From Kiloniellaceae bacterium (GTDB lineage Bacteria > Pseudomonadota > Alphaproteobacteria > Kiloniellales > J153), in the NCBI GenBank assembly GCA_021776115.1, contig JAJFGN010000041.1, positions 1-64,000 on the forward strand: DNA of 64,000 bases, read 5' to 3'. Below are positions 5,212 through 27,602 of this stretch, one piece after another. Numbering within the stretch: the stretch's first letter is position 1; the number at the start of each line of letters is the position of its first letter. A program made the translations under genes and the position numbers. A model generated the notes under the pieces. The model was given only the letters and a program-made list of their open reading frames with translations. It was not told the DNA's origin and did not search any database.

Positions 5212-5214
5212 GAC

Positions 5215-6416: not shown

Positions 6417-6468
6417 GCGAGTGAGGTGGAATTGAGGTTCCCGGGCCTAAGGCCTCTCCGCCCTTCTG

Positions 6469-6627: not shown

Positions 6628-6644
6628 AAAAAGAAGTGGCGGTT

Positions 6645-6989: not shown

Positions 6990-7120
6990 CGGTTTTCCTT
7001 TCAGAATAGAGGTTGCGTCACTCTCCCTACGACCAAACTGGGCGCGATCCGCGGCGGACGGCAATCAAAGCCGATCACATGTTCGTGCAATACCAAAACA
7101 CGAAAGCCGAGACTCCTGGC

Positions 7121-7230
7121 CCATCCTTCGAGACGCGTTCTTCTACCGCTCCTCAGGATGAGGGTGGTGTTCCATATCGAGATATGACCTCATGCTGAGG
7201 CGGCCGCGAGAGCGGCCGTCTCGAAGCACG
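7121..7230. repeat. Palindromic intergenic repeat (REP-like)
   Basis: CCTTCGAGACGCG near 7124 is mirrored by CCGTCTCGAAGC near 7217, with CTCCTCAGGATGAGG in one arm and a GAGAT-rich centre. This matches the widespread alphaproteobacterial extragenic palindrome containing TCCTTCGAGACG and TCCTCAGGATGAGG. With the flanking sequence it makes up the 433-base gap 6990-7421; I see no gene in it. Confidence 0.55.
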
Positions 7231-7421
7231 GCGGCTGGATCGCAGATTCCGAGACTCGGTATAAGGCGCCAGTCAAAGAAGGGGCGCGGACCCGTGACAA
7301 CCCTGTTAAGCGGGCGTTAACCACGCTCTGCGCAGGTTATGCCCGTGGCGGTTCGCGGGGCCGGGATCGGTTAGGGCCGCCAGACCGTTTTCCGTGAGAT
7401 CAGAAGCAAGGTAGGGCGCTC

Positions 7422-8247: not shown

Positions 8248-8763
8248 ATGGCGGAAATTTCTAAGTTTAGACACCGGCGGCGCGAAAACTCCAAAGTGCA
8301 TGGCGCGCAGCCGCAACTGCCCGTGCTGCCGTGGCTATCCACGGCGGTCCTGATCGGATTGGCGGCCGCCTGGTTCTTCCCGTACGGCCTGGGCCGGGAA
8401 GTCGTCGCCGGCTTCGGCGACTTCCAGTATTGCGCCAGCGCGCAACAGCAGAACTGCGTCATCGATGGCGACACCGTCCGTTACAATGGGCTGAGCATCC
8501 GGCTCGAAGACATCGACGCGCCCGAGACGCGCAAATACAAATGCGCGTCCGAGGCGGCCCTGGGACGGCGCGCGACACAACGGCTCCGGGAGTTGATGAA
8601 CGCGGGGCCTTTCCAGGTGGTTTATACCGGCGGCCGGGACGAGGACCGCTATGGGCGCAAGCTCCGGGTCATCGAACGCGACGGGCGCTCCTTCGGCGCC
8701 ACCCTGGTCGCCGAGGGCCTGGCCCGGCCCTGGGACGGCGCCCGGCGTAGCTGGTGCGGATGA
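8248..8763 (+). CDS. Membrane-anchored thermonuclease-family (SNase) nuclease
   Basis: The 171-residue protein has one transmembrane helix (~28-46, LSTAVLIGLAAAWFF) and then an SNase OB-fold: VIDGDTVRYNGLSIRLEDIDAPE (~71-95), EAALGRRATQRL, and EDRYGRKLRV (~131-140). DGDT, the DAPE Asp/Glu, and the Arg residues correspond to the calcium and phosphate-binding residues of staphylococcal nuclease. The domain probably faces the periplasm, so it may degrade incoming or extracellular DNA. It is flanked on both sides by copies of the same terminator-bearing repeat, hinting at a movable unit. Confidence 0.88.
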   Translation: MAEISKFRHRRRENSKVHGAQPQLPVLPWLSTAVLIGLAAAWFFPYGLGREVVAGFGDFQYCASAQQQNCVIDGDTVRYNGLSIRLEDIDAPETRKYKCASEAALGRRATQRLRELMNAGPFQVVYTGGRDEDRYGRKLRVIERDGRSFGATLVAEGLARPWDGARRSWCG

Positions 8764-8769
8764 GGTCGG

Positions 8770-8855
8770 GCTAAATCAAGACCAGGCTCGCTCGCTTTCG
8801 CCGGCCGCTAGCGCGAACAGAAAACCCGCCCGGGGAAAACCGGGGCGGGTTTTTT
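8770..8855 (+). repeat. Intergenic repeat copy 2 with terminator; candidate small RNA
   Basis: GCTAAAtCAAGACCAGGCTCGCT (8770-8792) repeats the block at 8016-8037 with one base inserted. Next come a different stem-loop (about 8789-8816) and a terminator hairpin identical to copy 1 (8825-8849) with its T-run (8850-8855). It starts just after the nuclease stop codon. Confidence 0.55.
8825..8855 (+). terminator. Rho-independent terminator (repeat copy 2)
   Basis: Same 25-base CCCGCCC...GGGCGGG hairpin as at 8058-8082, followed by six T. It ends the nuclease gene. Confidence 0.85.
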
Positions 8856-8964
8856 CTTTGGGGGGTTGTAGTTGTGATAGGCGATCCGGCTAACCCTCGC
8901 GAGGGTGCCGCCGTTCGCGCGCTAATGGGGTCCGCGAAAGGTCCGTTTGGCCGGCTAGGTTATG

Positions 8965-9186
8965 GGCTCATACACGGATGTTGTGAGCTACTCCCCGGAA
9001 ATCGGACAGTGACGTAAGCTAGGAATTCGGTGTCTGCTGGTCTTCGACGAGAGGAGATCAGCGATGACGAAACGCAAGCAGCACAAGCCCGAGTTCAAGG
9101 CGCGGGTTGCCCTGGAGGCCGAGCGCCGGGCGAAAGAAGAAAGGCCACGTCGGCGAAAAACGGCCGCGCGGCCGACACCCGGTTAG
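8965..9186 (+). pseudogene. IS3-family transposase orfA remnant with left-end sequence
   Basis: A frame beginning at ATG 9064 reads MTKRKQHKPEFKARVALEA, the standard N-terminus of IS3-family OrfA proteins, then turns into unrelated Arg-rich sequence and stops at 9186 after 40 codons. Upstream, GTGAGCTACTCCCCGGAAATCGG and GACAGTGACGTAAGCTAGGAATTC resemble the left end of this IS group. Everything past the first ~19 codons is lost, so the element cannot move itself. Confidence 0.75.
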
Positions 9187-9218
9187 CGCCTGCGCGTCGG
9201 GCAAAAAATTTCGGCATC

Positions 9219-9300
9219 TTCCACAGACCTCCCCCTTCCCGGCGGAACGCTGATGTCGTACCTCTAGGCAGGCTCGGAAATAGAGTCCGCGCTTCGGCCG
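9219..9300 (+). repeat. Partial intergenic repeat upstream of the ion-channel gene
   Basis: CTTCCACAG...TTCCCgGCGGAACGCT...GTACCTC...CAGGCTCGG parallels 10178-10235 downstream of the same gene (CTTCCACAG...TTCCCaGCGGAACGCT...GGCTACTC...CAAGCTCG). This copy lacks the terminator hairpin. The pair brackets the channel gene. Confidence 0.45.
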
Positions 9301-9389
9301 ACGGCGGCCCTCGGCGTCTCCCGTATTGCCAGGTGCGCCCGGCGCGGTCAGACTCGCGCTTCGCGATGCGGCGGGGGAGGGCCGGGTTT

Positions 9390-10163
9390 ATGGAGCATCT
9401 GAAGAAAACGATCGAGTTGCTCTATACCGGCGGCAGCCGCAAGGCGGCGTTCTTTCGCTATGCCTTGATCGGCTTCGATCTTTCCACCATCGTTTTCTTC
9501 GTCGTCACCACGCCCCTGGCGCCGACGGCGGGCATCTTGCTCGCCGATTTCGCGATCGGGACCGTGATACTGGCCGACTTTCTGGGCCGCCTTTGGATCG
9601 CGCCGAACAAGCTTCGCATGCTGAGGCAGATCTACACGATCACCGATATCCTGGTGATTCTCTCGCTTCTGCTGGCTCCTTTGATCAGTCAGAATTTCGC
9701 CTTCCTGCGCGTGCTTCGGGCGCTGCGCCTGCTGCACTCCTATCACGTGTTGCGCGACCTGCGGCGCGACACGCCGTTCTTTCGCCGCAACGAGGATGTG
9801 ATCGTCAGTTCGGTGAACCTGGGCGTGTTCATTTTTCTCATGACCGCGCTCGTCTTCGTGTTTCAGTTCGCCGACAACCCGGATATCGGCAGCTTTATCG
9901 ACGCGCTTTACTTCACCGTCTCGACCCTGACCACGACCGGCTTCGGCGATATCATCCTGACCGGCAATCTGGGGCGGCTGCTCGCGGTCTTCATCATGGT
10001 GGTCGGCGTGGCGTTGTTCCTGCGCCTGGCGCAAACCATCTTCCGGCCGCAGAAGCTGCGCCACACCTGCCCCGAATGCGGGCTGGAGCGCCACGAGCCC
10101 GACGCGATTCATTGCAAGCACTGCGGTCACGGCCTGAAAATTCAAACCGAAGGCGCCGGCTAA
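9390..10163 (+). CDS. Voltage-gated-type potassium (or related cation) channel with C-terminal zinc ribbon
   Basis: The 257-residue channel has S1-S6 topology: hydrophobic segments ~24-47, 49-70, 80-100, an Arg-rich S4-like helix (FLRVLRALRLLHSYHVLRDLRR, ~106-127), S5 ~140-160, pore loop and S6 ~190-212. The selectivity filter is TTTGFGD (~181-187) in place of the usual TVGYGD. The C-terminus carries a CPECG...CKHCG rubredoxin-like zinc ribbon (~227-247), which may act as a cytosolic sensor. ATG 9390 begins the first helix; upstream codons are not protein-like. The gene is bracketed by intergenic repeats. Confidence 0.85.
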   Translation: MEHLKKTIELLYTGGSRKAAFFRYALIGFDLSTIVFFVVTTPLAPTAGILLADFAIGTVILADFLGRLWIAPNKLRMLRQIYTITDILVILSLLLAPLISQNFAFLRVLRALRLLHSYHVLRDLRRDTPFFRRNEDVIVSSVNLGVFIFLMTALVFVFQFADNPDIGSFIDALYFTVSTLTTTGFGDIILTGNLGRLLAVFIMVVGVALFLRLAQTIFRPQKLRHTCPECGLERHEPDAIHCKHCGHGLKIQTEGAG

Positions 10164-10177
10164 AACAAAAAAGCCAT

Positions 10178-10287
10178 TCTTCCACAGCGGACCCTCTTCC
10201 CAGCGGAACGCTAAACGGCTACTCATAATCAAGCTCGAAAATTGAACGCGCGAACAAGCACCCGCCCGGACCGCCGTGGCGGGTTTT
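10178..10287 (+). repeat. Intergenic repeat copy 3 with terminator
   Basis: Downstream of the channel gene: CTTCCACAG...TTCCCAGCGGAACGCTAAA, then ATCAAGCTCG, GCGCGAACA and ACCCGCCCGG. The order of these short blocks is the same as in the copies at 7991-8088 and 8770-8855, though the sequence between has diverged. Confidence 0.45.
10261..10287 (+). terminator. Rho-independent terminator after the ion-channel gene
   Basis: CCCGCC (10261-10266) pairs with GGCGGG (10278-10283), followed by TTTT. It is weaker than the two related terminators upstream. Confidence 0.7.
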
Positions 10288-12328: not shown

Positions 12329-13570
12329 ATGGGATTGAGGCGCGCTTGGCAGGCGATCTGGGTCGAAGAAACCAAGGCCTCGGCCACCGGGCCCTTGATC
12401 GCGATGCAGAACCCGGGGCGCGCGGTCTGGTCGCCGCGCCGTTTCGACGCCTTCGCGGAGGAGGGCTATCGCCGCAACGTGATCGCCTACCGGGCGGTCA
12501 ATCAGATCGCGCGCGCCGTGGCTTCGGTCTCCTGGCGCGCCTTCCGGAACAGGGCCGATGGGCGGCGGGCGCTGGAGACCCACCCGATCCTGAGCCTGCT
12601 CGCGCGGCCCAATCCGGCGATGGCGCAGAGCGAGTTTATCGAGGCCGTCACCGGCTATCTCCTGATCGCGGGCAACAGCTTTGTCGAGGCGGTCGCGGCC
12701 GGCGGTGCTGTCGGCGCCGGGACCCCGCGTGAGCTTTGGCCGCTGAGGCCGGACCGGATGAAGGTGATCGCCGGTAAGACCGGCCTGGCCCAAGGCTACG
12801 TTTATAGCCTGGGCGGCGCCGAGCGGCGCTGGGCGGCGGACCCGGTTACCGGCCGTTCCGCGATCCTGCATCTCAAGACCTTTCATCCCTTGGACGATTG
12901 GTACGGCCTTAGCCCGATCGAGCCGGCGGCGGCGGCGATCGATCAACGCAACGAATCCGACAAGTGGAACATGGCGCTGCTGCAAAACGGCGCGCGGCCC
13001 TCGGGCGCCCTGGTCTATGAGCCCAAGGGCGCCGCCGGGGGCAATCTGAGCGACGAGCAGTTCGCGCGCTTGAAAGACGAAGTCGCGGCGCAATACAGCG
13101 GCGCGCGTAACGCCGGCCGGCCCTTGCTGCTGGACGGTGGATTGTCCTGGCAAGAGATGAGCCTCTCGCCCAAGGACATGGATTTTCTGGAATCGCGCCA
13201 TGCCGCCTCGCGCGATATCGCGCTGGCCTTCGGGGTGCCGCCGCAATTGCTCGGGATTCCGGGCGACAACACCTATTCGAATTACCGCGAGGCGCGCCTG
13301 GCCCTATGGGAGGAGACGGTGATCCCCTGGCTCCGCCACCTGCGCGACGAATTCAACGCCTGGCTGGCGCCGCAATTCGATGAGGAGGTGACGCTCGACT
13401 TCGATCTGGACGACGCCCCGGCCCTGGCGCCCCGGCGCGAGAAAGTCTGGGCGCGGCTTCAGGCGGCCGATTTCCTGACCCTCAACGAAAAGCGCCGGGC
13501 CGCCGGCCTGGGCTCGGTCGAGGGTGGGGACGTGATGGCGGCGCGGCCGCTCAGCGGTAATAGCCGATGA
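12329..13570 (+). CDS. Phage portal protein, HK97/RcGTA family
   Basis: Twelve-subunit ring at the head vertex through which DNA passes. The 413 residues are typical. Recognisable HK97-portal features: NVIAYRAVNQIARAVASVSW (~52-71), HPILSLLARPNP (~88-99), GLSPIEPAAAAIDQ (~194-207), and the C-terminal clip/crown region SRHAASRDIALAFGVPPQLLGIPGDNTYSNYREA (~290-322). It follows the terminase by 15 bases. Its last 20 bases overlap the 3' end of an antisense secreted-protein gene. Confidence 0.95.
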   Translation: MGLRRAWQAIWVEETKASATGPLIAMQNPGRAVWSPRRFDAFAEEGYRRNVIAYRAVNQIARAVASVSWRAFRNRADGRRALETHPILSLLARPNPAMAQSEFIEAVTGYLLIAGNSFVEAVAAGGAVGAGTPRELWPLRPDRMKVIAGKTGLAQGYVYSLGGAERRWAADPVTGRSAILHLKTFHPLDDWYGLSPIEPAAAAIDQRNESDKWNMALLQNGARPSGALVYEPKGAAGGNLSDEQFARLKDEVAAQYSGARNAGRPLLLDGGLSWQEMSLSPKDMDFLESRHAASRDIALAFGVPPQLLGIPGDNTYSNYREARLALWEETVIPWLRHLRDEFNAWLAPQFDEEVTLDFDLDDAPALAPRREKVWARLQAADFLTLNEKRRAAGLGSVEGGDVMAARPLSGNSR

Positions 13571-13982
13571 AGTACTCGCTGCCGGGCGTGACGTAACCGC
13601 GGCCGTACCCGTCGAAGCACATGGTGCCGCCGAACTGCGCCGGACGGCCGTTGTAATAGCCGGTGCCGGTGGTGGCGCGGCAGTTCCCCAAGACCGGCCG
13701 TGGCGGCGCATAATAGACCGGCGCGCGGTACGCCGGCGCGGCGTAGGCCGGCCGGGTCAAGAGATGGCCGAGGACCAGTCCGCCGACCAAGGCGCCGGCG
13801 ACGACGGCGCCATAGCCGTCGTGACGCCGGCCATAGCGCTTGTGCCCGCCGTATCCGTAGCCCTTGCTGTAGTGCCCGCCATAACCGTGGCCGCGGTGCC
13901 CGCGGCCATAGCCGTCGGCCCAGGCCGGGGCGCTGGCGAGCACCAGCACCGTGGCCGAAATCGCCGCGATCAGACGTTTCAT
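13551..13982 (-). CDS. Secreted Gly/Tyr/His-rich protein, antisense cargo gene in the head operon
   Basis: The 143-residue precursor has a clear signal peptide (MKRLIAAISATVLVLASAPAWA, cleavage after AWA), a Gly/Tyr/His/Arg-rich stretch (~23-58), a hydrophobic glycine-rich segment (VVAGALVGGLVLGHLL, ~60-75, like a glycine-zipper) and a C-terminal part with two Cys. It is a surface or periplasmic protein; similar proteins in alphaproteobacteria have no assigned role. It lies opposite to all structural genes between portal and protease, and overlaps the portal 3' end, which is typical of a phage moron. Confidence 0.72.
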   Translation of the reverse strand: MKRLIAAISATVLVLASAPAWADGYGRGHRGHGYGGHYSKGYGYGGHKRYGRRHDGYGAVVAGALVGGLVLGHLLTRPAYAAPAYRAPVYYAPPRPVLGNCRATTGTGYYNGRPAQFGGTMCFDGYGRGYVTPGSEYFIGYYR

Positions 13983-14078
13983 CTCGAGCGTCCTCCGTGC
14001 AGTTAACAAAAGTACTACGCGGCGGGCCTGCCGGCCATCCCCGCGCTGTTCCGCCGCCAAAAACTGGGAGTCAGGGCC

Positions 14079-14895: not shown

Positions 14896-16059
14896 ATGGA
14901 TATCGAACAGGTCAAGGATGCGGTCGACGAGTTGGGCCGAACTTGGATCGCCTTTCAAGATGAAAACAATCGCCGGACCGGCAGCGACCAGGCCGCCTTG
15001 GTGAAAATGAACGCCCGCATGGATCAGCTCGAGGGCGCCATACGCCGCGCGGAGCGCGGCGCGGTCGCGCCCGTCTCCGGCCCAGCTTACGGCGCCGAGG
15101 CAAAAGCCTATTTCGAGTATCTGCGCCACGGCACCCGCGACGAGCCGAATTCGAGCAGCGGATCTTTGACCCGCGAGGAGATGAAAGCCTTGAGTGTCGG
15201 CGCCGATCCGACGGCGGGTTACCTGGCGCCGGTCGAATTCGCTCGCGAGATCATTAAGTCCGAGATCGAATTCTCGCCGCTGCGCGCGGTGGCCCGGGTT
15301 CGGCAAACCTCCCGCCGGTCACTGCAGATGCCGAAGCGGCGCGGCACTTTCGGCGCGGTTTGGACCGCCGAATCGGCGGTACGTAGCGAAACCGAGGGCC
15401 TGACTTACGGGCTCGAGGAATTTCCAACCCACGAGATGTACGCCTTGCTCGACGTCTCCGAGCAGATGATGGAGGATTCGGAATTCAGTCTCGAAGACGA
15501 GCTGCAACAGGAATTCTCCGAACAATTCGCTGTCACCGAGGGCGCTGCCTTCGTGACCGGGAACGGTAGCGGCAAGCCCGAGGGCCTTCTTCAAAACACC
15601 GATGTCGGCGAGACCGTGAGTGGCAGCGCGGCCAGCATCGCCGATGCCACGGGCCAGGCAAACGGACTGGTCGACCTCTACCACGATCTGAAGACCGGAT
15701 ATGCCTTGCAGGGCTGGTGGTTGCTCAATCGGGCGACCCTGGGCGAAATCCGCAAGATGAAGGACAGCCAGAACAACTATATCTGGCAGCCTGGGCTGGC
15801 CAATGGCGTGCCGAACACCATTCTCGGCCAGCCTTATCTCGAGGTGCCCGACATGCCGGACGTGGCGGCCGGCGCCACGCCGATCGTCTTCGGCGACCTC
15901 CGCCGTGCCTACACGATCGTCGATCGAATCAGCTTGTCGATCCTGCGCGATCCTTTCACTCAGGCAACCAGCGGCAACGTCCGGTTCATCGCCCGGCGCC
16001 GCGTGGGCGGGCAGGTGGTTCTGGGCGAGGCCATTCGCAAGCTCAAAGTCAGCGCCTAA
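14896..16059 (+). CDS. Major capsid protein, HK97 fold
   Basis: The 387-residue shell protein. Residues ~1-95 form a coiled, charged scaffolding/delta domain that the upstream protease would remove; the mature part begins near KALSVGADPTAGYLAPVEF. Family landmarks follow: EIIKSEIEFSPLRAVARVRQTS, GAAFVTGNGSGKPEG (~215-229), GWWLLNRATLGEIRKMKD, GQPYLEVPDMPDV, and FGDLRRAYTIVDR. A strong Shine-Dalgarno (AGGAGGA) precedes ATG 14896. Homologous to RcGTA gp5. Confidence 0.96.
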   Translation: MDIEQVKDAVDELGRTWIAFQDENNRRTGSDQAALVKMNARMDQLEGAIRRAERGAVAPVSGPAYGAEAKAYFEYLRHGTRDEPNSSSGSLTREEMKALSVGADPTAGYLAPVEFAREIIKSEIEFSPLRAVARVRQTSRRSLQMPKRRGTFGAVWTAESAVRSETEGLTYGLEEFPTHEMYALLDVSEQMMEDSEFSLEDELQQEFSEQFAVTEGAAFVTGNGSGKPEGLLQNTDVGETVSGSAASIADATGQANGLVDLYHDLKTGYALQGWWLLNRATLGEIRKMKDSQNNYIWQPGLANGVPNTILGQPYLEVPDMPDVAAGATPIVFGDLRRAYTIVDRISLSILRDPFTQATSGNVRFIARRRVGGQVVLGEAIRKLKVSA

Positions 16060-16072: not shown

Positions 16073-16528
16073 ATGACCATGCATGACCTAAACAGCAACC
16101 TTGCTCCATTTCAGGCCCTTCCGGCGCAGACGATCAATCAGGGAACCGGTGCGCTGGTATCCGGAAATGTCGATCTGGCCGGCTTCAACGCGGCGCAGAT
16201 CGTCGTCCATTTCGGCACGATCGTCGAAATGGGTGCCTCGCCAACCGGTGCGGCGCAGATCGCCGTCAGACTCGAACACGCCGATGACAACGGCAGCGGC
16301 GCCCCAGGCGCCTACGCTAACGTGACCGACGCGGATGTAACCGGCGTAAGCGGCGTCGCCGCCGGCCTTGTCGCGAGCCCAAGCAGCGATCTTGTACCGG
16401 CCACCGTCGGTTACGTCGGAGACAAGCGATTCATTCGCGCAACCCTGACTCCGACGGGCCTGACAAGCGGCGGACCGGTGGGCGTAATCGTCAACCGGGG
16501 GCACCCTCGGCACGCCCCGGTGTCTTGA
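16073..16528 (+). CDS. Phage structural protein of unknown role (possible head decoration)
   Basis: The 151-residue, beta-rich, low-Cys protein starts 13 bases after the capsid stop behind GGAGGG. Its sequence (NQGTGALVSGNVDLAGFNAAQIVVHFG; DKRFIRATLTPTG) has the pattern of small phage capsid-associated beta-sandwich proteins. By position it could decorate or stabilise the shell, but I recognise no named family. The next gene has a similar composition and pattern (VDLGNPGPFALSLEAKLDG). Confidence 0.6.
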   Translation: MTMHDLNSNLAPFQALPAQTINQGTGALVSGNVDLAGFNAAQIVVHFGTIVEMGASPTGAAQIAVRLEHADDNGSGAPGAYANVTDADVTGVSGVAAGLVASPSSDLVPATVGYVGDKRFIRATLTPTGLTSGGPVGVIVNRGHPRHAPVS

Positions 16529-16633
16529 ACGTTGTCTATCCACTGACCTCCCTGTACCTGCGGCGGGGCTTGGTATTAGGCCCCGCCGACTCTTTCCGGC
16601 GCACAGGCATGAACAGAATCTTGGAGCCCGGCC

Positions 16634-17041
16634 ATGGCTGAGGATATCCGACAAAATTTCGGCATCGACACCGCTGTCACGATCACGCTCGACAACCTGG
16701 CCAACGGGTCTAGCGCAACGTCCAGCGCGGTGGACCTGGGCAACCCCGGGCCTTTTGCCTTGAGCCTGGAAGCGAAACTCGATGGCTCGGCGGCAGGCAA
16801 CACCGGCAATGTCGATATCTATGCGCAGTGGTCGAACGAAAACACCGATTTTTCCGATCCGCTTAACGATCTGCTGATTGGCACAGTGACCATGAATGGC
16901 ACTACCGCGGTCATCAAGGTTTTCGCCGCGCCGGTCCACGCCCGTTACGTGATCATTCGGGCCGAGAATAATTCGGGTGCGGCCCTGGCCGCGACGGGCA
17001 ACGCCCTGCGTTATGTGCCGGTGAGTGTGGATCAAGTCTAG
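16634..17041 (+). CDS. Small phage structural protein of unknown role
   Basis: The 135-residue protein of beta-strand pattern (TAVTITLDNLANGSSATSSAVDLG; GNVDIYAQWSNENTDF; VHARYVIIRAENNSG) looks like a jelly-roll or Ig-like virion accessory. Its stop codon shares the G of the GTG start of the LamG gene, so the two are co-translated. Function unknown; a decoration or fibre-attachment protein is likely from context. Confidence 0.58.
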   Translation: MAEDIRQNFGIDTAVTITLDNLANGSSATSSAVDLGNPGPFALSLEAKLDGSAAGNTGNVDIYAQWSNENTDFSDPLNDLLIGTVTMNGTTAVIKVFAAPVHARYVIIRAENNSGAALAATGNALRYVPVSVDQV

Positions 17042-18474
17042 TGCGCCTGGACCCTACGCACTTCCGCCAAGCGGTCGGTAACAAGGCGCCGCGCTGGCCC
17101 TTCGCGCTCGACCGCGCCAGTCCTCTGGCGCGCGAGTTGGCGGCCACCTGGCCTCTGTTCGCCGGTCCCGGCGTGGGCCTTAAAGATCATTCGGGAAATG
17201 GCGCGCATCTCGTGTTGGGTGCGGGAACTTTGGAACCCTCCTGGGCCACCCGGCCTGGACTAGATGCACGGGCGCTGGATTTCGACGGCGGTGACGAGGT
17301 GCACGTCGCAGCTGGTGACGTGGCGGCGCTCGACATTACGGGCGATAGGATCACTTTATCGGCGTGGATTCGGCCGGACGACACCGGCAACGCCAACGGG
17401 CGCCGTATTGTTTCGAAGCGGACCGACTCTGGCGGGTCCGATGTCTACGCGTTGTTCACGATTACCCCAAGCGGCGGTGAAATTTGGTTCCGACTGCGCA
17501 TCGGTGGGGCCGATCGTAATCTTGTGTTCGCAACGGCGGTCACAACCGGCATCTGGCAGCATTGGGCAGGGACCTACGACGGCACCACCATGCGCCTTTA
17601 CCGGAACGGCGTCGAAGTCGCGAGCCAGCCGCAAACAGGCAATATCGCCAATTCGGCGCGAGCGGTTCACCTTGGCCACCGTGAAGGCGAAGCCCGGCAC
17701 TTCGACGGGGCTATTGCGAATGCTGCGATCTGGTCGCGTTGTCTGAGTGCAGCCGAGATTCGCGCGCTATATAATCCGAGCACGCGCTGGGATTTGTGGC
17801 GTGAGCTGGCGGTGCCGCGGATCTTTCCAGAGATTGCCGGCGGGGTCACCGCGCGCACGCGCAGCGCCTCACTTGCGGCGGCCTTGCAACGCCAAGTGAG
17901 TCTATCGGCCGTGGCCGACGCCGCCTTGCGCGCCGAGGCCGTCTTGACGGCGTTGGCCGATGCGGCATTGCAGCGGGTCGTTCCAAGAAGTGCCGGCCTC
18001 GACGCCGCTGCGAAGGCTATCAAGTCGGCCCAAGTCGATCTCGGCGCGGCCTTGAAGCGGTCCCTGGAAGCGACCGCTGCGCTCGACGCGAATTTGACCA
18101 GCCAGGGTCTGTCCCAGCGTGTTGCGGGAATCGATGGCGCAATTCAACGGCTCAACGCGCTAAGTGGCGCGCTTGAGGCGGCGCTGCGCGCGTCGATACA
18201 AGGTGCGGCCGAGTTAGATGCTTGGCTTGCACTGAACCTCTCGAGAACCGCCGGCCTCAATGCTGTGGCACGGCGCGGTTATCAGCTTTCCGGCACCGCA
18301 TTGCAGGGCATATTGCGCGCGACACCCGATCGTGCCGCCGCGCTGGACGCGGTCATCGGTCTGGTGATCGCCGCGGCCGCAAGCCGGACGCATAAGGTCG
18401 GCGCGCGCGGCCGCAACAGGGTTGCGGGCGGGCAGCGGCGAAGCGTGATTCCATCCGGTAGCAGGAGACACTGA
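17041..18474 (+). CDS. LamG/concanavalin-like domain protein with alanine-rich repeats, virion-associated
   Basis: The 477-residue protein starts at GTG overlapping the previous stop. Residues ~1-60 hold a short N-terminal region ending in HSGNGAHL. Residues ~60-240 form a LamG-like jelly roll (ITLSAWIRPDDTGN, WQHWAGTYDGTTMRLYRNGVEV, IANAAIWSRCLSAAEIRALYNP), a fold that binds sugars or surface glycans. Residues ~275-455 are about twelve degenerate 13-17-residue repeats with core xAxLDAxL. It may be a head fibre or adhesion protein. It lies between capsid and connector genes, an uncommon place for a carbohydrate-binding protein. Confidence 0.72.
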   Translation: MRLDPTHFRQAVGNKAPRWPFALDRASPLARELAATWPLFAGPGVGLKDHSGNGAHLVLGAGTLEPSWATRPGLDARALDFDGGDEVHVAAGDVAALDITGDRITLSAWIRPDDTGNANGRRIVSKRTDSGGSDVYALFTITPSGGEIWFRLRIGGADRNLVFATAVTTGIWQHWAGTYDGTTMRLYRNGVEVASQPQTGNIANSARAVHLGHREGEARHFDGAIANAAIWSRCLSAAEIRALYNPSTRWDLWRELAVPRIFPEIAGGVTARTRSASLAAALQRQVSLSAVADAALRAEAVLTALADAALQRVVPRSAGLDAAAKAIKSAQVDLGAALKRSLEATAALDANLTSQGLSQRVAGIDGAIQRLNALSGALEAALRASIQGAAELDAWLALNLSRTAGLNAVARRGYQLSGTALQGILRATPDRAAALDAVIGLVIAAAASRTHKVGARGRNRVAGGQRRSVIPSGSRRH

Positions 18475-18475
18475 T

Positions 18476-19027
18476 ATGGTCGCGAATGTCGTCATCAACG
18501 AACACAATGGCGCGGCGCCCGGCGCGAAAAGCGATAAGACCTCTGGTACGATCCGCTTCAAGAACGCCGACGACGCCAGCGTCGATCTGAACAATCCGCT
18601 CGTCGTCCCGGGCACCGGGCAGGAATACTCCTTCGAGAAATGGCTACGCCTGGAAATAGCTGGCGGCACCTTCACGCAGATCACCAACTTGCGTGCGTAC
18701 TCGGATGGCGCCAACGGCTTCGGCGCCGGCGTCAAGCTCTGGTACGCTGTGACCGGCGCTTATGTGCAGCCTGTCGTGCCGAGCGAGGCCACGGACCCAC
18801 CGCAATCGGTCGCCGCCGGGTCGCCGGTCGAAAACATGCTGGATTTCTTCCTGGCCACGCAAGGCAGTCCCATCGATCTGGACGGGATCAATACGGGGCC
18901 ATTTGTCGATGGGTCCCCGACCGAAGCGATCGGCGATTTCCTGGTTCTGGTTATGGAGGTCGAGCCGACAGCTAGCAATGGCGTTCTTGCGACGGAAACG
19001 CTGACTTTCGCATACGACGAGATATGA
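18476..19027 (+). CDS. Phage protein of unknown function
   Basis: The 183-residue, soluble, mixed alpha/beta protein (VANVVINEHNGAAPGAKSDK; TIRFKNADDASVDLNNPLVV) has a beta-sandwich-like hydrophobic pattern and no signal or membrane segment. It starts right after the LamG gene and its stop overlaps the next start (ATGA), so it is part of the late operon. Similar proteins occur in tailed phages of alphaproteobacteria near the connector genes; a virion-surface role is possible. Confidence 0.55.
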   Translation: MVANVVINEHNGAAPGAKSDKTSGTIRFKNADDASVDLNNPLVVPGTGQEYSFEKWLRLEIAGGTFTQITNLRAYSDGANGFGAGVKLWYAVTGAYVQPVVPSEATDPPQSVAAGSPVENMLDFFLATQGSPIDLDGINTGPFVDGSPTEAIGDFLVLVMEVEPTASNGVLATETLTFAYDEI

Positions 19028-19305
19028 CGCCTGTGGCCGACGGCGCGCAGACCTTGCCCGAGTTCTCCATCGTCGGCACGGACGGCGAAGAACAACATGC
19101 GACCAATGGCCGGGTTACCTTGACGCTCTACCCGGACGGACCTGGTGCGAAGCTACGAAAGCGTAACGCCATCAAGCATGCCTGCACGCCCTGGGCGCGC
19201 CGCGAACAATGGCTATATGGCGAGCTCGATGGCGTGCGCTGTTACGTGAAGGACGAGGGCGCACAGATCCATATCGTTGTAACCAAACAGGATCTCTATC
19301 CCTGA
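19024..19305 (+). CDS. Small phage protein of unknown function
   Basis: The 93-residue protein is coupled to its neighbours by ATGA overlap at the start and by a one-base overlap with the next start. It is a small beta-rich domain (GRVTLTLYPDG; HIVVTKQDLYP) with two Cys. No family recognised. Confidence 0.5.
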   Translation: MTPVADGAQTLPEFSIVGTDGEEQHATNGRVTLTLYPDGPGAKLRKRNAIKHACTPWARREQWLYGELDGVRCYVKDEGAQIHIVVTKQDLYP

Positions 19306-19589
19306 TGCCTTATCGTCTGATAGATCCCGATGAGACGCTCGACTACGCCTGCGACTGGGCCGAATTCCTGGCCGACGGCGGCAGTCCGAGCGACACAATT
19401 CAAACCAGTCTCTGGTCGGTCGATCCCAGCGGACCAAGTTTGTCAGGCGCGTCTGTCGCGGGCGCGGTGACGCGTGTTTTCTTGTCTGGCGCGCAAGCCG
19501 GTCAAGTTTATCGGCTGACCAACACCGCGACGACCGCCTTGGGACGAACCGCCGAGCGAAGTTGGACCCTGCGATGCGAGAACCGCTGA
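19305..19589 (+). CDS. Phage fibre-tail adaptor-like protein
   Basis: The 94-residue protein starts at an ATG overlapping the previous stop. Its plan, PYRLIDPDETLDYACDWAEFL ... SLWSVDP-GPSLS ... YRLTNTATTALGRTAERSWTLRCEN, matches the short Ig-like proteins annotated as phage fibre-tail adaptors or connectors in alphaproteobacterial prophages. They are thought to attach accessory fibres. It overlaps the connector gene that follows. Confidence 0.62.
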   Translation: MPYRLIDPDETLDYACDWAEFLADGGSPSDTIQTSLWSVDPSGPSLSGASVAGAVTRVFLSGAQAGQVYRLTNTATTALGRTAERSWTLRCENR

Positions 19590-20224
19590 AACTCGAACTC
19601 ACGGCGCCGCCCGCGCGGTTGCCGGTCGACCTCAATGAGTTGAGGGCGCAACTGCGCCTGGACGACGATCAGACTGTCGAGGACGCGATCCTGCTTGCGG
19701 GTCTGCGCGCCGCGGCGGAGGCCTGCGAGAATTTCACCGGGCGCGCGTTGATCACCCAAACCTGGACATTGTTCCGAAATACCTGGCCGAGCGACGAAGC
19801 TAGCGCGCCCTTGCACGAGGGCTGGCGCGAGGGCGCTTTTGAGAGATCGGCCGCGCGCGCGCTGGCCCTGCCGCGGCCGCCCCTGCAATCGGTGGTGCAT
19901 GTCAAAACCTTCGCGGAAGACGATACGGAAGTTCTGTGGCCGGCGAGCGGGTATTTCGTCGATACAGCGGGGCTCCCTGGCCGCCTGATCGCGCGCACAG
20001 GGCAAGCCTTCCCGACGCCGGGACGCGCTGCCAACGGCATTGAGGTTCGCTTCATTGCAGGTCATGGCGACACGCCGGGTGACGTGCCCGTGCAGTTGCG
20101 CCAGGGGATCGTCCATCTGGCCGCCTACCTCTTCGAAAATCGTGGGGACACTGCGGCCGAGGCGGCGCTGAGCACATCCGGTGCCGCCGCGCTGTGGCGA
20201 CCCTTGGCCGTGGCGCGGCTCTAA
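19574..20224 (+). CDS. Head-tail connector (gp6/phiE125 gp8-like adaptor)
   Basis: The 216-residue ring protein is placed under the portal. The diagnostic N-terminal segment LPVDLNELRAQLRLDDDQTVEDAILLAGLRAAAEACENFTGRALITQTWTL is present, followed by beta-strands (SVVHVKTFAEDDTEVLW) and the C-terminal helix PVQLRQGIVHLAAYLFENRGD. ATG 19574 is chosen because the protein's conserved region begins shortly after it; an in-frame codon at 19562 adds four residues. Equivalent to RcGTA gp6. Confidence 0.88.
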   Translation: MREPLKLELTAPPARLPVDLNELRAQLRLDDDQTVEDAILLAGLRAAAEACENFTGRALITQTWTLFRNTWPSDEASAPLHEGWREGAFERSAARALALPRPPLQSVVHVKTFAEDDTEVLWPASGYFVDTAGLPGRLIARTGQAFPTPGRAANGIEVRFIAGHGDTPGDVPVQLRQGIVHLAAYLFENRGDTAAEAALSTSGAAALWRPLAVARL

Positions 20225-21394: not shown

Positions 21395-22021
21395 ATGGCC
21401 TGGTCCGTACCGCGCCTCTGGCCGGGGGAGACCTTCGCGTGCCTTGGCGGCGGGCCGAGCCTGACGGCAGCACAGGTTGCCGCGCTGCGCGGGAAGACGC
21501 GAGCCATCGCGGTCAACGATGCCTGGCGCTTGGCGCCCTGGGCCGATGTGCTCTACGCCTGCGACGGGCGGTGGTGGCGTAAGCACGGCGGCGTCCCCGT
21601 TTTCAAAAACCTGAAGGTCACCCTGTCCAACAGCGCCGATCAGGTTGGCGATTGGCCGGACATCGAGATTCTGGATAACACGGGGACCGAGGGTTTGGAG
21701 CGCGATCCGCGCGGTCTGCGCACCGGGCGCAACGGCGGCTATCAGGCGATCAACCTGGCGGTCCATCTGGGCGCCCGGCGCATTCTGCTGCTCGGCTACG
21801 ACATGAAACCGGCCGCCGATGGGCGCACGCACTGGTTCGGCGATCACGAGGATTGGCCGACCCGGCCCAACTTGTTTGGCGATGTCTTTTTGCCCCACTT
21901 CGAGGGTTTAGCTGATGCCTTGGATGAGATCGGCGTTGCCGTCGTCAACTGTACGCCCGGCAGCGCCCTGGAAGTCTTTCCAAAGGCGTCCCTCGAACAG
22001 GCGCTCGCCGACGGCCTATAG
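21395..22021 (+). CDS. Glycosyltransferase-like protein (DUF115/sialyltransferase-like), cassette gene 1
   Basis: The 208-residue protein has an N-terminal glycine loop (FACLGGGPSLTAAQVAALRGK) and a VNDAWRLAPWADVLYACD segment, as in phage-borne DUF115 and GT42-like proteins that handle CMP- or nucleotide-activated sugars. RTGRNGGYQAINLAVHLGARRILLLGYDM gives a second Rossmann unit. It likely adds or prepares a sugar for virion or surface decoration. It opens a four-gene cassette between tail-completion and tail-tube genes. Confidence 0.65.
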   Translation: MAWSVPRLWPGETFACLGGGPSLTAAQVAALRGKTRAIAVNDAWRLAPWADVLYACDGRWWRKHGGVPVFKNLKVTLSNSADQVGDWPDIEILDNTGTEGLERDPRGLRTGRNGGYQAINLAVHLGARRILLLGYDMKPAADGRTHWFGDHEDWPTRPNLFGDVFLPHFEGLADALDEIGVAVVNCTPGSALEVFPKASLEQALADGL

Positions 22022-22025
22022 CCTG

Positions 22026-22802
22026 TTGCCGACCCGCTTCGTGGACGGCCGCCACGAAACCATCCTGCGCGGCCTCCAACGGGCCGGGTGGCGTGTCGCC
22101 GAGGGGGCGGGTCCTCCACGCGACCGTCGTGATCTGCTGGTCACCTGGACCGTTCATCGCGGCGCGAAGGAAGACGCTGCGCGCGCCTTCGAGGCCGCCG
22201 GCGGTCAGGTCGTGGTGTGCGAGGAGGCCTATCTGCGCCGCATTAAGGGCGAGACCGCCTTCGCCATCGCGTTACACGATCACAACGGCGCGGGCCGTTG
22301 GCGCACCGGGGGTCCGGAGCGCTGGACCTCGTTCGGCATACCGCTGCAGCCGTGGCGCCGTGCTGGGTCGCATATTCTGGTCGCCGAACAACGCGGGATC
22401 GGCAGTCGCCGCATGGCCAGTCCGCCACTCTGGCACGACGATGTCGCGGCTAGGCTCAAGCGTGTGTCGAGGCGGCCCATCTTGTTCCGGGCACATCCTA
22501 AAAGCCGCCTCTATCCCAAACTGGCGCAGATCCAAGGATCGCTCGAGGGCGCCTTGGCCGGCGCGCACGCGCTTGTCACCTGGGCCGGCAGCGTCGCGGT
22601 ACGAGCCCTTATTCAGGGCGTGCCGGTCTATTTCGAAGCGCCCGAACTCATTTGCGGCGGCGCCTGCGCGCGCGGCGTCGAAGGTATCGAGACGCCGGCC
22701 TACCCGGACCGCCTGCCGGCCCTCGAGCGCCTGGCCTGGGCGCAATGGCGTGTCAGTGAGATCGAGGCCGGGGCGCCGTTCCGATGGCTGATGGCCGCAT
22801 GA
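22026..22802 (+). CDS. Capsular-polysaccharide-type glycosyltransferase-like protein, cassette gene 2
   Basis: About 258 residues with no good ATG: the frame opens upstream only in the shadow of the previous gene, and TTG 22026 is the most plausible start. The C-terminal half has FRAHPKSRLYPK and ALVTWAGSVAVRALIQGVPVYFEAPE, the pattern of KpsC/KpsS and related sugar-nucleotide transferases (a hydroxyl/Ser-Val followed by Gly-x-Pro-Val). The N-terminal half is a Rossmann-like unit. The donor and acceptor are unknown. It is coupled to the next gene by ATGA overlap at 22799-22802. Confidence 0.55.
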   Translation: MPTRFVDGRHETILRGLQRAGWRVAEGAGPPRDRRDLLVTWTVHRGAKEDAARAFEAAGGQVVVCEEAYLRRIKGETAFAIALHDHNGAGRWRTGGPERWTSFGIPLQPWRRAGSHILVAEQRGIGSRRMASPPLWHDDVAARLKRVSRRPILFRAHPKSRLYPKLAQIQGSLEGALAGAHALVTWAGSVAVRALIQGVPVYFEAPELICGGACARGVEGIETPAYPDRLPALERLAWAQWRVSEIEAGAPFRWLMAA

Positions 22803-23314
22803 GCGAAGGTTCCCTGATCGGGCAGTACCGGCTCATGCACGCGCGCGGTGCGGTCTTTCCGGGCCGGTCCCTACTGCGGGTCGCTTGGCACGTTTACGAT
22901 GCCGTGCAGCGTCACTCGGCGCTGACGCTGCTCGATTACGGCTGCGGCCAAGGCCAGCAATACGACCGCTACAAGGTTCATGAGTGGTGGGGGGTGCCGC
23001 GCCCGGCGCTCTACGATCCGGCGGTGCCGCGCTATGCCGCGCGCCCTCAGGGGTCCTTCGATGGCGTGATCTGTAGCGACGTTCTGGAACACGTGCCCCG
23101 CGACGAGTTGGACGGCGTGCTGACCGAGTGTTTCGGCTACGCCAAAAAATTCGTGTTTTTCTCGATTTGTTGCCGTCCTGCCCGCAAGTCGCTGCCAAAT
23201 GGCCTGAATTGTCACGTTACCCTTGAAAAGCCGGAGTGGTGGAACCGCCGTATTCAGGAATTCAAGGCGGCGCGGCGGCATGACGTGGCGCTCCACACGG
23301 TCTTCTCACCCTGA
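22799..23314 (+). CDS. Class I methyltransferase-like protein, cassette gene 3
   Basis: The 171-residue protein has motif I LLDYGCGQGQQYDRYKVH (~44-61) and the post-I region GVICSDVLEHVPRDEL (~88-103), as in SAM methyltransferases (DUF/type 11). It may methylate sugar or another cassette product. It is translationally coupled to the preceding gene. It is shorter than a usual methyltransferase at its C-terminus. Confidence 0.68.
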   Translation: MSEGSLIGQYRLMHARGAVFPGRSLLRVAWHVYDAVQRHSALTLLDYGCGQGQQYDRYKVHEWWGVPRPALYDPAVPRYAARPQGSFDGVICSDVLEHVPRDELDGVLTECFGYAKKFVFFSICCRPARKSLPNGLNCHVTLEKPEWWNRRIQEFKAARRHDVALHTVFSP

Positions 23315-23345
23315 AGTATCCGACTCAGCGGAGAACGGATGATCC

Positions 23346-24050
23346 ATGGCTCCTATCAGAATCTACATCGGTTGGGATCAACGCGACATCGCCGCGTTCG
23401 AGGTCTGCCGCCGCTCCCTGCTGCATCATGCCAGCGTGCCGGTCGAGATCGTGGCGCTCAAGGATTGGGAGCTGCGCGCCAAAGGCCTCTACTGGCGGCC
23501 CTATTCAGTCGACGAGCGCGGTCAGATGTGGGACGGGCGCGACGGGCGGCCCTTCTCGACCAATTTCAGCTACACGCGCTTCTGTATTCCGCTCCTAGAG
23601 GAATTCGGCAGTGAGTTGGTCGTTTTTTGCGACGCGGACATGCTGTGGCGCGCGGATGTCGCGGACCTGATCGAGGTGGCGGGGGAGGCCGCCGTTGCTT
23701 GTGTGAAACACGAGCATCGCCCGCATGAGCGCGACAAGATGGCCGGCCTGATCCAAACCGTTTATCCGCGCAAGAACTGGTCCAGCTTGATGGCTCTGCG
23801 TCCTGGGCGTTGCGCCGGTCTGACGCCCTATGCGGTCAACAACCGCACTGGCGCTTGGCTGCACGGCCTGCATTGGATCGACGACGCGTCGATCAAGGGC
23901 TTGCCGGAGTCCTGGAACTGGTTGGAGGGGTGGTCCGACCCGGCGATCGAGGCCAAGGTCGTCCACTTCACACGCGGCACACCGGATATGGCCGGATGCG
24001 AATCGGCGGCCTATGCCGCGGAGTGGCGGGCCGTCGCGGCGAGCGCATAA
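23346..24050 (+). CDS. Glycosyltransferase (GT-A, family 8-like), cassette gene 4
   Basis: The 234-residue protein begins PIRIYIGWDQRDIAAFEVCRRSLLHHA, then FSTNFSYTRFCIPLLEEF, then the metal-binding DxD in VVFCDADMLW (~96-98). This is the GT-A fold of glycogenin/LPS-type hexosyltransferases using a nucleotide sugar. The late motif VVHFTRGTPDM (~213-223) matches the family's C-terminal donor-site His. It closes the cassette before the tail-tube gene. Confidence 0.8.
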   Translation: MAPIRIYIGWDQRDIAAFEVCRRSLLHHASVPVEIVALKDWELRAKGLYWRPYSVDERGQMWDGRDGRPFSTNFSYTRFCIPLLEEFGSELVVFCDADMLWRADVADLIEVAGEAAVACVKHEHRPHERDKMAGLIQTVYPRKNWSSLMALRPGRCAGLTPYAVNNRTGAWLHGLHWIDDASIKGLPESWNWLEGWSDPAIEAKVVHFTRGTPDMAGCESAAYAAEWRAVAASA

Positions 24051-25123: not shown

Positions 25124-25756
25124 AGGCGCGACGGCGCCGCGCGGGATCTGGGGTTTACCTTCGCGTCTTCCTTCGAGGACGCGGTGGTCGAGGGGCGGCG
25201 CTTGTCCGATGTGTTGCAGGGTCTGGAGCAGGACATCCTGCGCATCCTAACCCGCAAGCTCGTGACCGAACCCTTGGCCGGTGCGGCCACGAGCCTGATC
25301 GGGACCGGTGTTGGCGCACTAGCGGGGCAGTTTCACGGCGGCGGCCGGGTTGGTTCGACGGCGGTTTCGGGCCGTGTGGTGCCGGCCTCGCTCTTCGACG
25401 GGGCGCCGCGTTTCGCCGGCGGCGGCATGATCGGGCGGGTGCCGAGTCTGGCGCCGGGCGAGGTGCCGGCGATTCTGCATCGCGGTGAGATCGTGCACAC
25501 CCCGGCCCAGGAAGCCGCGTTGCGGCGCAACGCCGGCGGCTCCGGCGATACGCGGATCGTGGTGAACATTCAGACGCCTGATCCGCAGCAGCCCAAGATC
25601 AAATTGACGCGCGCATTCTCCAACATACCATTTCCAAGTTACCAAGCCTTCGTAATGTTCATGAAATTCGTGTACAGGGTTGCCTTCCAACCGTCAGGAA
25701 ACGATACAGAAATCTGGCACACTGATTCGGGAAGCGTCGCGTCACGCTCGATAACG
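25120..25756 (+). pseudogene. Truncated tape-measure remnant (copy A of a duplicated C-terminal region)
   Basis: ATG 25120 overlaps the chaperone stop as expected for a tape-measure start, but its frame is lost within nine bases: the following tape-measure-like sequence (from 25129) is in another frame. From 25129 to 25586 the DNA matches 27068-27525 without indels at ~93% identity by eye; the encoded part includes EDAVVEGRRLSDVLQGLEQDILRILTRKLV and AGAATSLIGTGVGALAG. After 25586 it runs into unrelated sequence and stops at 25757. The N-terminal body of the original gene is missing, so this copy is probably non-functional, although GTG 25184 could start a 191-residue product. Confidence 0.75.
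25129..25586 (+). repeat. Direct repeat copy A (458 bp, tape-measure C-terminal region)
   Basis: Indel-free direct repeat of 27068-27525, offset 1939 bases, with about 33 differences in 458, mostly at third codon positions. Both ends are sharp: it begins at CGACGGCGCC and ends at GATCCGC. The divergence suggests recombination with a related element rather than a recent tandem copy. Confidence 0.85.
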
Positions 25757-26061
25757 TAGGAAAACAAACTCGGGTAGAGGTCCAGAACGGAGGCGTCACA
25801 GCGAACGGCGCGAACCCAAAGCGAGCTGGGCGCCCTTACAAGACAGCCAAGTCTTTCTATTTCACTCGAGTCAAAGCGTTTGTGAGCAGCCGTCGCCGGA
25901 TTGACCGCTGTTGGCGTGGTGCACGTTGGCCAAGCATTGAGGAGCTTTCCAGCCTCCGCATTACGGCCAAAAGCGATCGTCAACAGCAGAAATAACAATA
26001 AGCAACGTATCTCGCCATACACAGCATTTCCACCATAGAAAGCCGACAAGCTCTTCGGCAA
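25639..26061 (-). CDS. Hypothetical secreted protein within the tape-measure insertion
   Basis: The 140-residue frame on the opposite strand is in lower-GC DNA than its surroundings. Residues ~20-37 (CLLLFLLLTIAFGRNAEA) look like a signal peptide if translation starts a little downstream of the first codon. Three Cys occur in the mature part. No family recognised, and codon use is unlike the flanks, so it may be a moron carried in by the recombination that rearranged this locus, or not a gene at all. Confidence 0.38.
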   Translation of the reverse strand: MPKSLSAFYGGNAVYGEIRCLLLFLLLTIAFGRNAEAGKLLNAWPTCTTPTAVNPATAAHKRFDSSEIERLGCLVRAPSSLWVRAVRCDASVLDLYPSLFSYVIERDATLPESVCQISVSFPDGWKATLYTNFMNITKAW

Positions 26062-26216: not shown

Positions 26217-27602
26217 ATGGCGAACGAAGGATTGAGTTTCGACATCACTGCTGATCTCAGACCTCTGGAGACCGCGCTTAAGAAAGCGGAGCAGTCAATC
26301 GGCGGTCTTACGAGTAAGCTGGAAAAGGGCTTCAGTTTGTTCGATGCGCGCATCGGAGTTCTGAAAAAAGGCTTGGTGGCATTGGACGCGCAAGCGCGAA
26401 AGTCAGGAGAACTTCTAAGCGCATCGTTTGAAGTCCTTGGCTCAATTTCAGGTATTCCTCTGCTTGGCAGGTTTGGCGAAGAGATCGAAAAGCTTTCCGG
26501 CGATACGAGGCAGCTCGAAGCAAACTTCAAAAGATTATTCGCGATGAAGCCCGGTGCCCTTCTGTCCGAGATTGGAGACTTGGAAACTCAAATCCAAATA
26601 ATCGGCGCGGCGGTGGAAGCCGGGATACCCGCCAGAGCGATTTCCGACGATGTGCGCTTGCTGAAAGAGGAGCGAAAGCAGGTTTTTGATGCGCTAGTTG
26701 AACAAGCCTCCGAACCGTTTAATAAGCTCGAGAACTTAGCCAGTTTTGACGGCGCGATACCGGACACGTTTCAGGCGCGGAAACTGGCAGAGCGCCTCGA
26801 AGAGTTCCGAGGTATTTTCCAGGAAATCAGATCGATAACCGATGATCCGGGCGTTAGAACGAGGATCGACATGCTGCCATTCTTTGAGGGACCCCGCCAA
26901 CGTGAACGGGGCGCATTGGAGCCGCGCTCGCCCAGGGACATTCAACTGGCCACGTTCGAAGCCACAGAAGGCGTGAACACCCTGGCGGCGGCCCAGAGCA
27001 TGTTGACAGATGCCGTCGAGCGGAGCGGCCGGTCGCTCGAAGAACAGACCGGCACTATCCGCAACCTCGACGGCGCCGCGCGGGATTTGGGTTTTACCTT
27101 TGCCTCTTCCTTCGAGGACGCGGTGGTGGAGGGGCGGCGTTTGTCCGACGTCTTGCAGGGTTTGGAGCAGGACATTCTGCGTATCCTGACCCGCAAGCTC
27201 GTGACCGAACCCTTGGCTGGCGCGGCCACGAGCCTGATCGGGACCGGTGTTGGCGCGCTGGCCGGGCGGTTTCACGGCGGCGGCCGGGTTGGATCGACGG
27301 CGGTTTCGAGCCGTGTGGTGCCGGCCTCGCTCTTCGCCGGGGCGCCGCGTTTCGCCGGTGGCGGCATGGTTGGGCGGGTGCCGAGTTTGGCGCCGGGCGA
27401 GGTGCCGGCGATTCTGCATCGCGGTGAGGTCGTGCGCACCCCCGCGCAAGAGGCCGCGCTGCGGCGCAACGCCGGCGGCTCCGGCGATACGCGGATCGTG
27501 GTGAACATTCAGACGCCCGATCCGCGCGCCTTCAATGAATCGCGCGGCCAGATTCAGGCCATGCTGGCCGACGCCGTGCGCGCCGGCCGCCGCAACCGTT
27601 AA
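26217..27602 (+). CDS. Tail tape-measure protein with an acquired N-terminal region
   Basis: The 461-residue protein has an N-terminal ~280 residues that are helical and of lower GC and different codon use (ITADLRPLETALKKAEQSIGGLTSKLEKGFSLFDARI; KKGLVALDAQARKSG) than the C-terminal ~180 residues (FASSFEDAVVEGRRLSDVLQGLEQDILRILTRK ... GGGRVGSTAVSSRVVP ... ILHRGEVVRTPAQEAALRRNAGGSG), which is the RcGTA-type tape-measure end. The C-terminal part is copy B of the 458-bp repeat. This sets tail length. It is probably the functional tape measure because it is followed in frame and order by the DUF2460 gene. Confidence 0.8.
   Translation: MANEGLSFDITADLRPLETALKKAEQSIGGLTSKLEKGFSLFDARIGVLKKGLVALDAQARKSGELLSASFEVLGSISGIPLLGRFGEEIEKLSGDTRQLEANFKRLFAMKPGALLSEIGDLETQIQIIGAAVEAGIPARAISDDVRLLKEERKQVFDALVEQASEPFNKLENLASFDGAIPDTFQARKLAERLEEFRGIFQEIRSITDDPGVRTRIDMLPFFEGPRQRERGALEPRSPRDIQLATFEATEGVNTLAAAQSMLTDAVERSGRSLEEQTGTIRNLDGAARDLGFTFASSFEDAVVEGRRLSDVLQGLEQDILRILTRKLVTEPLAGAATSLIGTGVGALAGRFHGGGRVGSTAVSSRVVPASLFAGAPRFAGGGMVGRVPSLAPGEVPAILHRGEVVRTPAQEAALRRNAGGSGDTRIVVNIQTPDPRAFNESRGQIQAMLADAVRAGRRNR
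27068..27525 (+). repeat. Direct repeat copy B (458 bp, functional tape-measure end)
   Basis: Partner of 25129-25586. It is in frame with the intact tape-measure gene and continues into its normal C-terminus (RAFNESRGQIQAMLADAV), whereas copy A continues into unrelated sequence. Confidence 0.85.

Follow-up and report, generated by a model that had tools for sequence, protein, structure and literature searches.

Between the genes for the major capsid protein and the head-tail connector of a phage-like structural gene cluster, a 64,000-nucleotide stretch of a Kiloniellaceae genome (the window; it lies on contig C36, one of the 85 contigs of a 4.3-Mb genome) carries a slot at 16073-19589 filled with six open reading frames (ORFs), A-F. 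The question raised by this locus is what their products would contribute to a particle. The best explanation, given an even chance as a whole, is that A is a capsid decoration protein and that B-F form a cassette for a receptor-binding fibre, probably at the neck, in a vertically inherited cluster resembling a gene transfer agent (GTA). Taken separately, the fibre identity of the cassette is, by our own estimate, likely, and the neck position of the fibre is close to a coin toss.

Gene content and conservation of the slot

The six ORFs and their borders are as follows.

14896-16059, plus strand: HK97-type major capsid protein, left border of the slot (PF05065, 2.5e-74; best PDB match the RcGTA capsid Rcc01687, 1.6e-45)
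16073-16528, plus strand: A, probable capsid decoration protein, 151 amino acids (phrog_5707, 1.1e-18; adjoins the capsid gene in relatives; weak match to 8cjz_B, E 0.015)
16634-17041, plus strand: B, small protein of the genus, 135 amino acids, possible base or partner of C (F5/8 type C, E 0.0092, below the cut-off)
17041-18474, plus strand: C, predicted fibre protein, 477 amino acids (LamG at about residues 1-262, 14-residue-repeat shaft at about 265-449, basic C-terminal tail)
18476-19027, plus strand: D, predicted Ig-like beta-sandwich protein of the fibre module, 183 amino acids (predicted local distance difference test score, pLDDT, 82.6; predicted template modelling score, pTM, 0.83)
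19024-19305, plus strand: E, small conserved partner, 93 amino acids (follows D in 38 of 43 D loci)
19305-19589, plus strand: F, fibre-adaptor family protein, 94 amino acids (PF23148 Gp77, 2e-21; PDB 8jou_D, 7.3e-6)
19574-20224, plus strand: head-tail connector, right border of the slot (TIGR02215, 3e-32; overlaps F by 16 bases)

B-F are tightly packed (B and C overlap by 1 base, C and D are 1 base apart, D and E overlap by 4 bases and E and F by 1) and run into the connector gene, whose start was placed at a conserved ATG at 19574 in preference to the TTG at 19562 in the ORF list, suggesting that the cassette is co-expressed with virion genes. In the three other genomes of the genus (G001, G002, and G003; the window's own is G000), A-F are collinear, with identities of 79-82% for A, 75-87% for B, 60-62% for C, 84-86% for D, 78-82% for E, and 82-89% for F, and all six ORFs have ratios of nonsynonymous to synonymous substitution rates (dN/dS) well below 1; thus, A-F are regarded as real genes. 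An earlier note on this DNA had described five to six extra beta-rich proteins in the slot. The count of six holds, and the term beta-rich fits C and F by family and D by model, applies weakly to A and B (for B, through the F5/8 type C match at E 0.009, below the cut-off), and found no support for E. A is not extra, since relatives without B-F also carry it after the capsid gene, and it stands apart from the B-F cassette, a distinction that the earlier note did not draw.

A lies directly 3′ of the capsid gene in those relatives without B-F (L017, L018, and L059), and A relatives directly follow the capsid in most loci where both were seen; nine A loci were found in a scan of viral contigs. The better of the two PDB matches to the A profile is 8cjz_B, named "Capsid Decoration Protein", although this match is weak (E 0.015, 18.5 bits). 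From its sequence relatives and gene position, A is most likely a capsid decoration protein. An A-like domain is also inserted near the N-terminus of the head-tail connector protein in three loci (L061:5852-7018, L062:8112-9050, and L064:2772-3710), and its occurrence there and beside the capsid is consistent with a beta domain that serves on the outer surface of both head and neck.

A probable fibre protein with a LamG domain and a repeat shaft

The LamG protein reported in the earlier note is C, whose residues 88-240 match Laminin_G_3, a concanavalin A-like lectin domain (PF13385, 1.2e-29), with 103.8 bits against a curated cut-off of 27.6; the GH16-type E-x-D-x-E motif was not found in C. 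Binding of glycans through this domain is plausible. The shaft has a repeat period of 14 residues, or double that, in all seven shaft proteins tested, and the last 35 residues of C carry a net charge of +9.

C is the least conserved slot protein, and its dN is the highest in the cluster for three of the four genome pairs among G000-G003; in the fourth pair, the shaft has the highest dN, but the head-completion protein exceeds the LamG part. The dS of the LamG part is 1.6-1.9, as compared to 0.3-0.9 in the terminase, portal, protease, and capsid genes, with values above 1 being near saturation and therefore rough. The dS is also raised at B and C, and less so in D and in the genes from the connector to tail completion, suggesting an exchange of old alleles around the fibre. 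In a viral contig close to the window (L058/L067), the LamG part is 35%, the shaft 60%, D 87%, and the capsid (over the covered part) 92% identical to the window's. A conserved anchor combined with a fast-evolving head is the expected look of a receptor-binding part.

Proposed partners of the probable fibre gene

The fibre-tail adaptor-like gene of the earlier note is F, which scores 76.7 bits against PF23148 (curated cut-off, 27) and is, by sequence, a member of the Gp77 fibre-tail adaptor family, as is gp77 of Ralstonia phage GP4 (PDB 8jou). GP4 is a podophage, whereas F lies beside a LamG-shaft protein in a siphovirus- or GTA-type cluster. F matches 68 named phage records; its relative lies among the minor tail genes in Mycobacterium phage Archie and directly downstream of the connector in Bradyrhizobium phage ppBdUSDA122-1.

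The earlier note had proposed structure prediction as a check, and AlphaFold was applied to C and D among the slot proteins. D was modelled as an Ig-like beta sandwich, whereas the model of C (mixed alignment, 31 rows) failed at pLDDT 44, and the helical shaft in it was not used as evidence. The solved folds nearest to D are pilin-like and other Ig-like chains, with a best Z score of 6.3 and none at 8 or more, which is not decisive, and the D model had no match at E 0.001 in BFVD; the model thus supports an Ig-like sandwich, and nothing further is drawn from the fold search. No convincing relative of E was found in Pfam or PDB. B was found only in the genus and in one viral contig (one locus in the viral contig scan), and a search of solved-structure sequences with its profile gave no hit at E 10 or better.

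A recurrent module in uncultured viruses

Viral contig scans found C at 7 loci and D at 44 loci, many of the D-bearing contigs being short. A profile search gave 43 metagenomic D loci, of which 38 have E after D, 30 have a C-type shaft in the vicinity, and 5 have F. Upstream of D lies a capsid homologue at 11 of the 43 loci and a hub homologue at 2. As controls, none of 3174 ORFs from 468 kb of other DNA matched the B, C, D, E, or F profiles, and one of 5515 reversed ORFs matched the shaft profile. The sequence in front of the shaft varies between phages: no LamG was found in ten other shaft proteins scanned, and LamG occurs on shaft proteins only in the window's genus and its close viral contig. 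Among 50,697 named phage records, D matches one, a Methanosarcinales virus, and shaft queries match none, with the proviso that low-complexity filtering may hide repeats. By these sequence comparisons, D, E, and C-type shafts are a recurrent module with swappable shaft heads, whose relatives are almost confined to uncultured viruses.

Literature searches found no paper combining LamG, bacteriophage, capsid, and head fiber, and no title resembling the cassette for head fiber, phage, connector, lectin, and neck, the 14-residue shaft not having been searched for in print. The cassette would probably represent a fibre of an undescribed kind with a sugar-binding head.

Position on the particle and alternative explanations

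We infer that the cluster produces particles in which the slot proteins would be present. In C, the LamG domain would form the outer, ligand-binding head, the 14-residue repeats the shaft, and the basic C-terminal tail the anchored end; F would be the adaptor joining the fibre to the particle, and D and E would be constant partners that serve in assembly or as a cap or bridge. The fibre would sit at the portal vertex or neck. By analogy with the RcGTA head spikes, it may hold the particle at the recipient's glycan layer in a first, reversible grip, before the baseplate engages.

The neck position is proposed on two grounds: where both were found, shafts mostly lie just upstream of the connector, and a single shaft protein is fused to a head-tail attachment domain. 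Eight loci hold a shaft as well as a connector, and in six of them 60-164 bp separate the end of the shaft match from the connector match; L074, whose gene order is that of the window, and L106 depart from this pattern. The fused protein, in L117, carries Phage_attach (PF05354, 1.4e-11) and phrog_82 head closure (5.7e-8) matches at its C-terminus, and this fusion, together with the variable N-termini of shaft proteins, suggests that the C-terminal end of C is the anchored one.

Several observations weigh against this explanation. A tail-hub gene precedes the shaft-D-E-F block in L087 and L094, and the module may accordingly serve at the tail. The window itself has D, E, and F after the shaft gene and before the connector, in contrast to the six loci where shafts abut the connector, and in L106 the connector precedes D. 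L117 is the single neck fusion seen, and it also has an unfused copy of Phage_attach, so that the fusion may be a phage-specific duplication. F occurs at few D loci (5 of 43), B lies outside the recurrent module, and C could not be modelled. The earlier note's suggestion of head decorations or fibres is therefore retained in part: A is decoration-like and C, D, E, and F recur as a shaft with an adaptor relative, but "head" is less certain than "particle", given the neck fusion, the connector-abutting shafts, and the two tail-hub loci.

The first alternative is that B and C are head-vertex spikes like those of RcGTA, with B as a base on capsid pentamers, C as a flexible fibre, and D-F serving otherwise. 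RcGTA has eleven head spikes, each of a jellyroll base pentamer and one capsule-binding fibre (PMC7296036; PMC10218006), and the 1-base overlap of B and C as well as the weak jellyroll-type match of B would suit such a pair. This is nevertheless unlikely: the B profile has no solved-structure hit at E 10 or better, the recurrent module combines shafts with D and E but lacks B, and the RcGTA fibre is anchored by its N-terminus (PMC7296036), which is the LamG end here. The A, B, and D profiles matched no RcGTA spike chain, in a comparison of sequences only in which the presence of the base chain in the set was not checked; the spike chains are also absent from the D fold-search list, which excludes nothing.

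Alternatively, C-F may be tail fibres at or near the tail tip, with their capsid-connector position a matter of gene order only. The block that follows a megatron-like hub gene in L087 and L094 (L087 also has a DUF2793 gene), the name fiber-tail adaptor given to the GP4 relative of F, and the minor tail neighbours of the F relative in phage Archie all favour a tail location. A capsid homologue nevertheless lies upstream of D in 11 of the 43 D loci, shafts abut the connector in six loci, and the sole fusion is to a neck protein, which leaves this a rather unlikely reading. That the slot holds passenger genes (morons), whose products act outside the particle, or chaperones only, is improbable, since its variability (L059 has no such genes, L017 has different small ORFs, and L018 has tail genes) is outweighed by gap-free genes, the connector overlap, purifying selection, the repeated finding of D, E, and shafts next to virion genes, and an F relative in a solved virion part.

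Origin of the cassette and of its LamG domain

Returning to the explanation of B-F as a fibre cassette, its distribution is narrow. D was found in five of nine genomes of the family (one of them, G006, holding a 44-residue fragment), C-type LamG in four of nine, which are the four of the genus, and, in a draw of 385 Alphaproteobacteria genomes including the window's own, D in that genome only. Outside the genus but within the family or order, the slot contains different small ORFs (L017) or tail tube and tape genes (L018), and in viral contig L059, which lacks B-F, the connector starts about 80 bp after A. Because D and C are narrowly distributed in family and class and the slot varies between genera, B-F seem to have been acquired locally, or else lost from other lineages; this does not apply to A. 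The guanine-plus-cytosine content is 59-61% in B and D-F, 65% in C, and 68% from terminase to capsid. The capsid-connector slot of a related cluster, L018 (G033), is occupied at 8313-10257 by genes of tail tube, chaperone-like, and tape-like type. A concanavalin-like protein noticed by eye in the G004 slot (L016 2933-3735) had no such match in Pfam or PHROGs and is not claimed as LamG, and Pfam and PHROGs scans of the slot genes of L061-L065 found no named head-fibre family.

Among all LamG domains found, those most similar to the LamG of the fibre belong to large proteins of its own host. The fibre's domain is 44% identical (135 bits) to that of a 1101-residue ORF, cut by a contig end, in the same genome; similar domains occur in G001-G003, and, of 289 genomes of the class, eight including the window's own had a LamG match, the best outside its own genome scoring 58 bits. 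Large host proteins with fibre-like LamG domains, most of them with PKD-type domains, are L125 and L126 (on C29 and C60 of G000) and L127-L131; the more complete ones have, by eye, a signal-peptide-like start, and these proteins may be secreted. The deep branches of a LamG tree with 54 rows are weakly supported, and groupings of the cluster's LamGs with the LamG of the viral contig, with host LamGs, or with phage LamGs were all unrejected (p-AU, from the approximately unbiased test, of 0.33, 0.40, and 0.32, respectively); neither a LamG swap nor a host origin is established by phylogeny. It is conceivable, if quite unlikely, that a domesticated Kiloniellales phage particle took up the fibre module and equipped it with a lectin head of the host-secreted type to grip the glycans or matrix of its own kin, and that 14-residue-repeat shafts with exchangeable N-terminal heads form a class of neck fibre that is new and widespread among uncultured viruses. 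If so, recipients would be chosen by a host-derived lectin.

The GTA-like cluster carrying the slot

The cluster runs from a small terminase gene (10432) through terminase, portal, protease, capsid, connector, and tail genes to the tape measure, which has a weak RcGTA-type match, and a megatron-type protein (29743-33066). The nearest named relatives of the capsid are from metagenome-assembled genomes labelled Kiloniellaceae (two), Kiloniellales (one), and Proteobacteria (one). Host genes on either side of the cluster keep the same order in G000, G001, and G002 (ORFs at 30-7919 upstream, with the exception of the first ORF in G002, and at 34135-36292 downstream), as expected for vertical inheritance at a fixed site in these three species, and most are 80-94% identical, similar to the cluster core genes. 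Over the 84 kb compared, G001 keeps most of its collinearity through to the end, G002 has no collinear matches after 36292, and the G003 contig holds cluster genes only. The dN/dS of the cluster genes tested is about 0.05-0.32. No Phage_integrase match (PF00589) was found on C36, with matches elsewhere in the genome on C12, C40, C42, and C44; the Pfam-nameable ORFs adjoining the cluster are ordinary host genes, and three small ORFs at 33088-34107 received no names from library searches. The fixed site, purifying selection, integrase-free contig, and ordinary host neighbours fit a domesticated GTA-like element, and the carrier is likely a vertically inherited, domesticated, GTA-like prophage cluster of a Kiloniellales genus. 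Curated NCBIfam GTA cut-offs were missed by the megatron (515 of 800 bits) and the tape measure (48.8 of 220 bits).

Other features of the cluster were also observed. Between the tail completion and tail tube genes (21395-24050) lie a sialyltransferase-like gene (phrog_4603, 5.7e-45), a methyltransferase gene, a phrog_28018 protein gene, and one unnamed ORF, which are conserved in the genus, mostly also in G005, and are possible glycosylation genes. The C-terminal part of the tape measure is partially duplicated upstream of the full gene (25184-25759 and 26217-27602), and the megatron-type protein has, by eye, a beta-propeller-like stretch in its first half. A Gly/Tyr-rich ORF with a signal-like stretch lies on the minus strand between portal and protease (13551-14060) and is partly conserved in three relatives.

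Comparison with known systems and significance

The cluster resembles RcGTA-type GTAs in having an HK97 capsid that, among solved chains, is nearest to that of RcGTA, a tape measure and a megatron with RcGTA-type matches, the same site in three species, and purifying selection; it differs in its sub-cut-off NCBIfam scores and in its extra cassette and glycosyltransferase-like genes. In RcGTA, head spikes bind the capsule first and tail fibres then orient the particle (PMC7296036; PMC10218006). Like these spikes (base Rcc01079 and fibre Rcc01080), the cassette would encode an accessory beta-rich fibre on a GTA-type particle, proposed to make first contact with cell-surface polysaccharide. The spike genes are numbered apart from the RcGTA structural cluster (rcc01079-01080 versus capsid rcc01687), whereas the window's genes lie inside the cluster and encode different domains, namely, LamG, a 14-residue-repeat shaft, and a Gp77 adaptor.

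In the survey by Kogay et al. (2019), none of five Kiloniellales genomes had an RcGTA-like cluster, and that survey was the sole paper found to combine "gene transfer agent" with "Kiloniell" (PMC6821227). The present cluster thus concerns an order for which this published survey gives no such cluster.

For uncultured viruses, the module offers a first functional guess for protein families in dozens of contigs that are almost absent from named phage records. For gene-transfer particles, recipient choice is known in detail for one model system, and a fibre set inside the structural cluster, with the cluster's fastest-evolving gene at the binding end, would give a direct handle on recipient choice.

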